Shown: in pieces, positions 9,512-12,559 of the stretch
Numbering within the stretch: the first letter of the stretch is position 1
Layout of the letters: every line of letters starts with the position of its first letter
NCBI GenBank assembly: GCA_023137315.1
Contig: JAGLPP010000077.1
Coordinates: 1-39,881 of the forward strand
Length of the DNA: 39,881 bases
Source of the DNA: Bacteriovoracaceae bacterium
GTDB lineage: Bacteria; Bdellovibrionota; Bacteriovoracia; Bacteriovoracales; Bacteriovoracaceae
Direction: 5' to 3'
Program-made: the position numbers and the translations under genes
The notes under the pieces: model-generated
The model's input: only the letters and a program-made list of their open reading frames with translations
What the model was told of the DNA's origin: nothing
Databases searched by the model: none

Positions 9512-10144
9512 ATGTACCTTTATACAGATACAACGGATCATATAATAGTTGGCCTGCTTTCCGATGAATTTCAATGGTTGGAATATCATGAGGAGAAGTC
9601 AATAAAAAGAAGTTCGAATGAACTTCATCATACAATATATAAAATTCTGGAAAAGCATGAGTTGAAATTTTCAAAATTGCGTGGGTTTCTTTTTGCGGCT
9701 GGTCCTGGATCTTATACTGGAATGAGGCTCTCGGAAGGGATTGCCCAGATCTGCGAATGGCAGGGAATAAGGGTAAATTCATTTTATCATGTGGATGTTC
9801 CACATCTGTTAAAATCGGAAGAAGGAGTATGGTTTTCGAAGGCATTCAAAGGGGAATATTTTTTTTATGAATGGAAAAGGGCATCTGAAAACAAGAGCAG
9901 GCTTTTAAACGAAGAGGATTTTATACAGGAACTTAAAAAGTTTGACGTAGCAAATATTTATACCAACTTTGAGGATAAAAAACTTCTACAGAATCTGGAT
10001 ATCGATATTGAAATTACTTCAACAGCACATGATATCCGGAAATTTCCCAGGAAAATTTTTCAGGAGGTTGTTGATGGAAATTTGCGTTTTCCGCCGCTTT
10101 ATTATCGTTCAGAAGAGAGTGAGTTTAAAATACCTGCGAAATGA
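9512..10144 (+). CDS. tsaB: tRNA threonylcarbamoyladenosine biosynthesis protein TsaB
   Basis: TsaB is the non-catalytic partner of TsaD in making t6A37 on ANN-reading tRNAs. It has the ASKHA-fold N-terminal strand (MYLYTDTT) and the family motif GPGSYTGMRL around residues 68-77. The C-terminal half is poorly conserved, as is usual. The length of 210 is normal. Its ATG begins two bases after the rseP stop and has no clear ribosome site, so translation probably depends on coupling. Confidence 0.88.
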   Translation: MYLYTDTTDHIIVGLLSDEFQWLEYHEEKSIKRSSNELHHTIYKILEKHELKFSKLRGFLFAAGPGSYTGMRLSEGIAQICEWQGIRVNSFYHVDVPHLLKSEEGVWFSKAFKGEYFFYEWKRASENKSRLLNEEDFIQELKKFDVANIYTNFEDKKLLQNLDIDIEITSTAHDIRKFPRKIFQEVVDGNLRFPPLYYRSEESEFKIPAK

Positions 10145-10201: not shown

Positions 10202-10801
10202 ATGGCAAATACCTATCTTTCATCGTCGTTCCATATTATTTTCGTGTTGACAGGATTCTTTTTGATAAAATTCGTGGATTTTTATTTGGGGTCATCAATC
10301 CTGTTTTTATATATATTGCTGGCCTGGTTATTTAGAAGAACAGGTTTTGATAATATCTCAAAGGATGTAATCGTATCACCCAAGTCTGGAAGAGTATTAT
10401 CAATAAAAAGTGGATATTCACATCATCTTATTGGGGATGATTTATTGGAAGTGGAGGTAGGATATAATTTCATTGGAGGTTATGGTTTATATTTTCCATG
10501 TTGTGGAGAGGTCTGTGATTTTTATGATGAACATGGGAATAAAAAAATTCTTGTATTATTTCAGAGTGATGATGGATATAAAATTGGAATATCAATAAGA
10601 AAAAATATTTTTGGGTTCTATCCACGCATATGGTTGAGTGTTGGAGATCGTGGAAGTTGTGGGGCAAACTTTGGATATTTTCCGTTCGGCGGTAAAATTT
10701 TGTTGTATATACCGAAGGATTTTGATGTTGCTGTAGATATAGGTAGCCGTCTTTGCGGCGGAAAGAGTATAATTGCTGTAATAGCAGGGGCCAAAGATTG
10801 A
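10202..10801 (+). CDS. Phosphatidylserine decarboxylase family protein, catalytic residues replaced
   Basis: Resembles the short, archaeal-type phosphatidylserine decarboxylase. It has an N-terminal membrane hairpin (about residues 10-45), a substrate-domain strand ending SPKSG (59-63), and a C-terminal GDRGSCGANFGYFPFGGK then LLYIPKD pattern. That pattern matches the family's GDRV..G...G.IRFGSR.D.YLP. The residues that make Psd work seem to be gone. The Asp of SPADG is Ser62, the His of the HVNR segment aligns with Tyr94, and the self-cleaving Gly-Ser of FGSR is Gly163-Gly164. Without that Ser no pyruvoyl group can form. It overlaps pssA by four bases, in the normal psd-pssA setting. It is probably a non-catalytic homologue. 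GS at 181-182 is a weak alternative cleavage site. Confidence 0.75.
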   Translation: MANTYLSSSFHIIFVLTGFFLIKFVDFYLGSSILFLYILLAWLFRRTGFDNISKDVIVSPKSGRVLSIKSGYSHHLIGDDLLEVEVGYNFIGGYGLYFPCCGEVCDFYDEHGNKKILVLFQSDDGYKIGISIRKNIFGFYPRIWLSVGDRGSCGANFGYFPFGGKILLYIPKDFDVAVDIGSRLCGGKSIIAVIAGAKD

Positions 10802-11574
10802 AAAAATTAAAAAAGTTGAGAACCAGTATTGGCAAGAATGTGATTCATGACTCCAGGAAGCTTGCATTCTTTCTTCCAAATATTTTTACGGCCCTGAATC
10901 TTGCTTGTGGCTTTATTTCCATAGTTTTTATTTGGAATGAAAAATACTATGTTGCGTGCATGATACTCATGTTAGGTGTTATTTTTGACATGGTGGATGG
11001 ACGGATAGCCAGATTAACGGGGACACAAAGTGATTTTGGTGAACAATTTGATTCGATGAGTGATATTGTTACGTTTGGGGTTGCTCCATCAATGCTGGTC
11101 TATAATCGTTTTTTTGTGGATTTGGGACGTTTGGGGTTGGTGGTATCATTCCTGTTTTTGCTTTGTGGTGCTCTTCGATTGGCACGTTTTAATGCAAATG
11201 TTGAAAAAGTTCACCCTAATTTTTTCCAAGGTCTTCCCATTCCTGCGGCGGCAGTTGCTTTGGTTGGATACGTATTATTATCGACTGAATTTGATGTTTT
11301 GGCACAGTGGTCACCAATAGCTGTAGTATACGTGATTTTTTATGGTGTACTCATGATTTCAAATGTTCCTTTTTGTTCTTTTAAAAAATCGGAGTGGATG
11401 AGGGCATACAAAAAAAGGGCATTGATAGTTATTTTTCTTATACTTGCGGCTACCTGTGTTTATGAGCAATTTATGATACCATTGGTTATCAGTATTTATG
11501 TTGTTACTTCCTTGATTTATTTTTTATTTCACATGGGTGAGTTAAGGGGAGTATTTGATTGGAAAAATGAGTAG
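10798..11574 (+). CDS. pssA: CDP-diacylglycerol-serine O-phosphatidyltransferase
   Basis: Transfers the phosphatidyl group from CDP-diacylglycerol to serine, giving phosphatidylserine at the inner membrane. The complete CDP-alcohol phosphotransferase signature (DG..AR........G...D...D) spans residues 67-89. The FLPNIFTALNLACGF opening is typical of type II (Bacillus-like) PssA, and several hydrophobic helices follow. I chose TTG at 10798: AGGGG (about 10785-10790) lies seven bases upstream and the codon overlaps the previous stop (TTGA). A longer frame from TTG 10753 would extend into the Psd-like gene. The length is 258. It uses the CdsA product made in the same operon. Confidence 0.93.
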   Translation: MKKLKKLRTSIGKNVIHDSRKLAFFLPNIFTALNLACGFISIVFIWNEKYYVACMILMLGVIFDMVDGRIARLTGTQSDFGEQFDSMSDIVTFGVAPSMLVYNRFFVDLGRLGLVVSFLFLLCGALRLARFNANVEKVHPNFFQGLPIPAAAVALVGYVLLSTEFDVLAQWSPIAVVYVIFYGVLMISNVPFCSFKKSEWMRAYKKRALIVIFLILAATCVYEQFMIPLVISIYVVTSLIYFLFHMGELRGVFDWKNE

Positions 11575-12559
11575 TTGGTCAATGAGATTAATATTTGTTC
11601 TTTTATGCATCTTATTCAGTTTCAGTAGTATTCTTCTTGCAGAAGATTTTGGCCAGAAGATCGTTGTGGAGTCCAGTGGTTTGCTGGATGACGATATGGA
11701 TAAAACCTATAAGGACATTAAGGGGACCAGTGAATTTCTTCCAGGTTTGGAAGGAGATGAATATATTGGACCAAAGACAAAAGAAACAACAAGCTTTTCA
11801 TTGCCAGGAATGCATGGCAATCCAATGGATGTTGATAAGAAAAAATACATAAAGGATGTGGATCATACATCTCTTGGTTCAATGGACGACAAGAATTATT
11901 TTCTGGAATATAAAATTGGTGAGCTGATTGGAGAGATTGAAAATAAAGGAAGATCGGCCATGACATTTAATTATTTCAAAGATACGTATGATTATGAGGA
12001 TTCCGAATCTGTTTTTAACAGGACTTATCGACAGGATTCACGTTCTCATAATATTGGGACTATACAATTGGGATATGACTGGTTTATTAGTCGAAAATAT
12101 GGAGATTTCTCAACAGGATTAAATTTGGGATATGGTTATAATAGCGGGCATGGAATTTTTCAAACAACAAAAGTGAGAAGCAAAGCTGAGTTCAAGCTTA
12201 TTACATTACCTCTTGATGTATCAGTGAAATATGCCAGTGTTATCGGAAGATGGTTCAAAATTGAGCTTTCTGCCGGGCCATCCGTAATGGGCCTGTATCA
12301 GACAAGAAGTGATCGGGATTCTGGAGAAAGAGGGAAGAGAAGAAGACAGATTGGAACTGGATATTTTGGACAGGGGGCACTGAAGTTTAGTTTAAGTGAT
12401 TTATCCCCGAGAGATTTTTACAAGTTGTTTGACAGTTTTTCGATAACGAAGGTTTGGTTTGGGGTTCTGGCAAGATATCAGTATTTTTCAAATTTTCAGG
12501 ACGATATAACGATTTCCGGAAATTCTCTTGGCATTGGCCTTTCTTTTGAGTATCTCTAG
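11567..12559 (+). CDS. Outer-membrane beta-barrel protein, function unknown
   Basis: An exported protein with a signal peptide (hydrophobic stretch ending ILLAED). An acidic, Gly/Pro-containing linker of roughly 90 residues carries two similar segments (FLPGLEGDEYIGPKTK and FSLPGMHGNPMDVDKK). The C-terminal part has alternating, aromatic-ended strands (GTIQLGYDWFISRKYG, FSTGLNLGYGYNSG, LGIGLSFEYL) as in a small outer-membrane barrel. Two starts are possible: TTG 11555, with AAGGGGAG three bases upstream, or ATG 11567, whose signal peptide begins more normally. I use the ATG. It overlaps the end of pssA and precedes truA by five bases, so it is co-transcribed with lipid genes. No specific family was recognised. 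Confidence 0.72.
   Translation: MSSWSMRLIFVLLCILFSFSSILLAEDFGQKIVVESSGLLDDDMDKTYKDIKGTSEFLPGLEGDEYIGPKTKETTSFSLPGMHGNPMDVDKKKYIKDVDHTSLGSMDDKNYFLEYKIGELIGEIENKGRSAMTFNYFKDTYDYEDSESVFNRTYRQDSRSHNIGTIQLGYDWFISRKYGDFSTGLNLGYGYNSGHGIFQTTKVRSKAEFKLITLPLDVSVKYASVIGRWFKIELSAGPSVMGLYQTRSDRDSGERGKRRRQIGTGYFGQGALKFSLSDLSPRDFYKLFDSFSITKVWFGVLARYQYFSNFQDDITISGNSLGIGLSFEYL

Follow-up and report, generated by a model that had tools for sequence, protein, structure and literature searches.

The conversion of phosphatidylserine into phosphatidylethanolamine is carried out by phosphatidylserine decarboxylase (Psd), the phosphatidylserine being supplied by PssA. In the Psd of Escherichia coli, decarboxylation has been shown to need His-144, while Asp-90 and Asp-142 back each other up and the S254A variant remains uncleaved (PMC7952604). 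Among pyruvoyl-dependent decarboxylases a dead homologue with a function is also on record, namely the AdoMetDC prozyme of trypanosomatids, a dead paralogue that pairs with and activates the live one (PMC5201418). For Psd itself, no relevant paper on a pseudoenzyme or an inactive paralogue was found among the open-licence papers searched. Live relatives of the protein described here are the short-type Psds read from seven other families of the same phylum, in which the catalytic His and the FGS motif (Gly-Ser) are kept in 22 of 22 sequences, with Asn in place of the Asp in a single case (G363). In all nine examined for adjacency, pssA lies directly downstream.

The locus lies in a stretch of 39,881 nucleotides, referred to here as the window, from a member of the Bacteriovoracaceae, a family which includes predatory bacteria. 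It holds an intact open reading frame of 199 codons, named PsdX here, running from an ATG at 10202 to a TGA at 10799-10801, and is followed by a pssA gene whose product keeps the motif DxxDGxxARx8GxxxDxxxD (Table 1). The probable start of pssA, an in-frame TTG at 10798, overlaps the PsdX stop codon, so that the initial annotation of an intact gene at the psd-pssA position overlapping pssA holds with this start as its inferred element. The window and the three longer relatives that were read share the gene order cdsA-rseP-tsaB-psdX-pssA-(unknown protein)-truA-tig. The protein between pssA and truA (11555-12559), found at the same position in the relatives read, has no Pfam match (best E 0.19) and carries a signal-like N-terminus, and is possibly an envelope protein.

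Table 1. Features of the psdX-pssA region, in positions of the window.
Feature	Position	Strand	Evidence
tsaB-like gene, upstream of psdX	9512..10144	+	PF00814 E 5.9e-5 (just below cut-off); same place in relatives (synteny)
PsdX (name given here), short-type Psd homologue, almost certainly catalytically dead, 199 aa	10202..10801	+	Matches Psd family; Ser62, Tyr94 and Gly164 at the Asp, His and Ser places
Predicted pair of N-terminal membrane helices (residues 8-25, 27-43)	10223..10330	+	AlphaFold, hydropathy; same layout in canonical short Psd model
Ser62, replaces triad Asp	10385..10387	+	Asp in 9/9 canonical; the 119 family rows include N 49, S 19, H 17, D 6
Tyr94, replaces catalytic His	10481..10483	+	Canonical His 9/9; relatives variable (K, M, F, Y, W, L; H in 6)
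Glu103, newly conserved in dead clade	10508..10510	+	81% by genus
Gly-Asp-Arg-Gly 148-151, conserved in dead clade	10643..10654	+	G 100%, D 100%, R 71%, G 83% by genus
Pro161-Phe-Gly-Gly164, former Gly-Ser cleavage loop; Gly164 for pyruvoyl-forming Ser	10682..10693	+	Gly in 114/117 rows with a residue; canonical Ser 9/9
pssA, CDP-diacylglycerol--serine O-phosphatidyltransferase	10798..11574	+	TIGR00473 144.8 bits, cut-off 107; active-site motif intact; TTG start inferred

The assignment of PsdX to the Psd family, made in the initial annotation, has been upheld by profile searches. The protein is matched by PF02666 (23.5 bits, E 4.9e-5, cut-off 22) and by the NCBIfam model for short Psds, NF003678 (E 2.9e-11). 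It lies below every equivalog cut-off for functional Psd, with a best score of 43.1 bits against a required 225, on a model which G040, a canonical short Psd belonging to a different family of the phylum, passes with 239 bits. A profile-profile comparison of 28 PsdX relatives with nine canonical short Psds gave a probability of 99.7% and an E of 2.2e-25 over 211 columns, a match that at the level of sequence profiles is far beyond chance, and placed residue 62 opposite the Asp and Gly163-Gly164 opposite the Gly-Ser pair.

The replacement of all three catalytic residues had been proposed from the window alone and is borne out by comparison with the nine canonical short Psds, as their invariant Asp, His and Ser fall on residues 62, 94 and 164 when aligned with hmmalign, and residues 62, 94, 163 and 164 of PsdX are Ser, Tyr, Gly and Gly. 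Across 119 rows from the family, Gly occupies position 164 in 114, with Ser in two, Ala in one and a gap in two; position 62 is Asp in six (G104 among them), position 94 is His in six, and no row has all three catalytic residues together. Loss of the Ser at 164 would by itself leave PsdX unable to form a pyruvoyl group, and residue 165 is Lys, leaving no shifted Ser or Thr in the window protein. Two substitutes for the lost site were considered and set aside. Residue 165 is Thr in 72 of the 119 rows but Lys in the window protein and varied elsewhere, and Gly181-Ser182, which the initial annotation had named as an alternative cleavage site, occupies columns that align with the C-terminal GDKV-like turn, outside the cleavage loop. 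PsdX is almost certainly a conserved pseudoenzyme rather than a Psd.

A search was made with a profile of 28 genus representatives across the Bacteriovoracaceae, taken in the broad GTDB sense (129 genomes). Matches were obtained in 120 of these, one of them through a different, canonical Psd. Of the 119 sequences read, the one from G104 is a canonical Psd encoded at a different locus, leaving 118 PsdX loci, and the frames are open in nearly all copies. The pssA motif occurs at the expected distance downstream in 113 of the 118; among the remaining rows, two end at a contig edge, three gave no motif detection and one is G104. The psdX stop and the pssA start overlap or are closely spaced, and identity to the window PsdX between genera is 20-34%. 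In named records, close relatives come mostly from Bacteriovoracaceae, Bacteriovorax and other Bdellovibrionota, including Bacteriovorax sp. DB6_IX, and tblastn gave no match on plasmids. In five genomes (G019, G024, G104, G027 and G028) PsdX is missing and pssA comes straight after tsaB, with PssA and Psd both kept, which indicates that PsdX is accessory and inessential to the pathway; in four others (G003, G001, G029 and G140) very diverged versions stand at its place. Psd-family matches in G019 (C11:112490-113155) and G024 (C11:16936-17439) lie within open frames of 517 and 552 aa and are possibly fusions. Another Psd type, with the motifs ADGQ, FDVHYNRMP and MGSQVD, is found elsewhere in the G104 genome, which has no pssA-adjacent PsdX (L176, G104:C394, 162-923).

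A tree was built from 32 dead and 15 live sequences, and in it a single branch of length 2.3 separates the two groups with a support of 100/100. The tree was read without a root and its branches are long, so that the order inside the dead group is unsure. The simplest reading of these sequences is that the catalytic residues were lost once, in the ancestor of the Bacteriovoracaceae.

Selection on the gene was estimated by pairwise NG86 dN/dS on the closest species pairs, synonymous sites being near saturation in many of them. In the best-sampled genus (g15) the closest pairs gave 0.047-0.081, and values near 0.05 in such pairs indicate that the dead gene is functional. Values of 0.035 and 0.063 were obtained in g5 and g8; pairs in g24 gave 0.070, 0.086, 0.109 and 0.112 as well as higher values of 0.21-0.24; g13 and g60 are looser, at 0.3-0.6 with dS near saturation. 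Within the dead clade, Pro60, Gly148, Asp149, Gly158 and Gly164 are 98-100% conserved when weighted by genus, and Glu103 (81%), Gly151 (83%) and Pro161 (90%) are conserved where live forms have other residues. The newly conserved sites of the clade are Glu103, Asp149, Gly151, Pro161 and Gly164, a pattern which, in these alignments, is one of renewed constraint around the old active site and not of decay. It is very unlikely that PsdX is decaying and persists only because its translation is coupled to that of pssA. Such a relic would fit the clean losses in several lineages, the spacing of the psdX stop and pssA start and the high divergence, but is opposed by dN/dS of about 0.05-0.1 in close pairs, the near-invariant Gly-Gly, the newly conserved sites, the open frames and a confident predicted fold. 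Purifying selection and clade-specific residues would also be expected if the Psd fold had acquired a new enzyme activity independent of a pyruvoyl group. This appears highly improbable, given that the only polar residues widely conserved in PsdX are Arg45, Glu103, Asp149 and Arg150, of which Arg45 adjoins the membrane helices and Asp149 sits in a turn common to the Psd family. With so few conserved polar residues, binding is favoured over new chemistry.

Structure prediction with AlphaFold from the 28-sequence alignment gave a confident model (pLDDT 93.8, pTM 0.87) of an uncleaved Psd-like barrel with two N-terminal helices. A canonical short Psd modelled as a control (pLDDT 87.5) agrees with it in the order of its elements, the feature on which the two were compared. 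In Foldseek searches of the PDB, both models matched PsiD, a Psd-like decarboxylase, with a modest TM-score. It was the first match of the control; for the PsdX model (probability 1.00, TM about 0.4) it followed 3our_B (E 4e-6), whose length points to the EIIA chain of that complex, and M23 peptidases. These matches are read as a common barrel fold and not as a sign of function. When the family profile was searched against the sequences of solved structures, just weak biotinyl/lipoyl-type matches came up. The predicted retention of the barrel, the two putative membrane helices and the new conservation of the former active-site region would suit a protein that binds, transfers or senses phosphatidylserine or another anionic lipid with a target other than PssA; this is not very likely, since the tight linkage to pssA is less well explained by it.

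The possible presence of another psd in the genome had also been raised, and one has been located. Besides PsdX, PF02666 matches a long Psd of the PRK00723 type (NF001941) that is split over two contig ends, its C-terminal part ending C34 and its N-terminal part starting C36, with about 25 residues missing between them. The catalytic motifs DYHRFH and FGGSTV are kept, and the two parts probably belong to one active gene. A strong Psd match occurs in 124 of the 129 family genomes, being absent from G030, G146, G077, G108 and G138. The earlier suggestion that phosphatidylserine might be kept as an end lipid is accordingly unlikely, because a long Psd with the needed motifs is present; nothing usable was found in the lipid literature on Bacteriovorax, Bdellovibrio stolpii or Halobacteriovorax. 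The long Psds of the family (G000:C36:1-600; L005-L030) carry Glu, in a SEAR-like motif, at the column of E. coli Asp-90 and keep the equivalents of Asp-142, His-144 and His-147. Two long-type copies each were seen in G035, G011, G008, G096, G098, G099 and G100.

Judged from the genes, PsdX and the long Psd place a dead homologue of a pyruvoyl decarboxylase and a live one in the same cell. This recalls the dead AdoMetDC paralogue of trypanosomes (PMC5201418), and PsdX might likewise pair with the long Psd and activate the enzyme or its self-cleavage. Such a role is unlikely: the live Psd belongs to another subtype and its gene is located away from psdX, whose coupling is to pssA, and in the representatives of families f7 and f12 this long type occurs without any match to PsdX.

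The claim of a preserved pseudoenzyme in a phospholipid operon, as first put forward, is strongly supported by conservation across the family, by purifying selection, by the predicted fold and by a pyruvoyl Ser that is lost almost without exception, and it is very likely that PsdX has taken on a new non-catalytic job in the Bacteriovoracaceae. PsdX would be the former short-type Psd of an ancestral psd-pssA pair, from which the long PRK00723-type Psd would have taken over decarboxylation; the displaced protein may then have lost its catalytic residues once, in the family ancestor, and been retained as a membrane-anchored, uncleaved and non-catalytic protein, most likely serving PssA, its gene neighbour, as an accessory. 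With its two N-terminal helices holding it at the membrane, the barrel may bind PssA or CDP-diacylglycerol/phosphatidylserine through the remodelled former active site, tuning or channelling the supply of phosphatidylserine to the long Psd. There is about an even chance that the displaced Psd has survived as a non-catalytic protein bound to the membrane, acting as a partner or regulator in a role linked to PssA. That PsdX regulates PssA or binds phosphatidylserine, as had been proposed, is plausible from the gene coupling and the conserved, remodelled active-site region, and it can be put forward tentatively that a dedicated pseudoenzyme of the Psd fold has phosphatidylserine or CDP-diacylglycerol as its ligand and controls the output of PssA. 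Against a PssA-linked role stand the five genomes that do without PsdX yet keep PssA and Psd, the high divergence between genera and the looser dN/dS of g13 and g60; moreover, the adjacency could be an inheritance from the ancestral psd-pssA pair rather than a functional retention. If the reading of PssA control is true, a displaced biosynthetic enzyme became a regulator of the preceding step. A pseudoenzyme of the next step beside pssA in nearly a whole family is a defined candidate for controlling how phosphatidylserine is made, and it offers a clear example of an enzyme that a distant relative displaced and that was afterwards put to new use. The annotation 'Psd family protein' in these genomes need not imply decarboxylase activity.

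When compared to the short-type Psds (the PRK05305 group, with TIGR00164 archaetidylserine decarboxylase and PF02666), PsdX shares their family and length, the predicted fold with two N-terminal helices and, with those of the sister families, the position of the gene before pssA. It differs in that the Asp, the His and the pyruvoyl Ser are all replaced and in scoring far under the equivalog cut-offs. The long-type PRK00723 Psds (NF001941) have PF02666 in common with PsdX, whereas they keep DYHRxH and GGST, are encoded elsewhere in the genome and are about 300 aa long. Like PsdX, the AdoMetDC prozyme is a dead homologue of a pyruvoyl-dependent decarboxylase found beside a live one, but it belongs to a different protein family, and pairing and activation are features of the prozyme.
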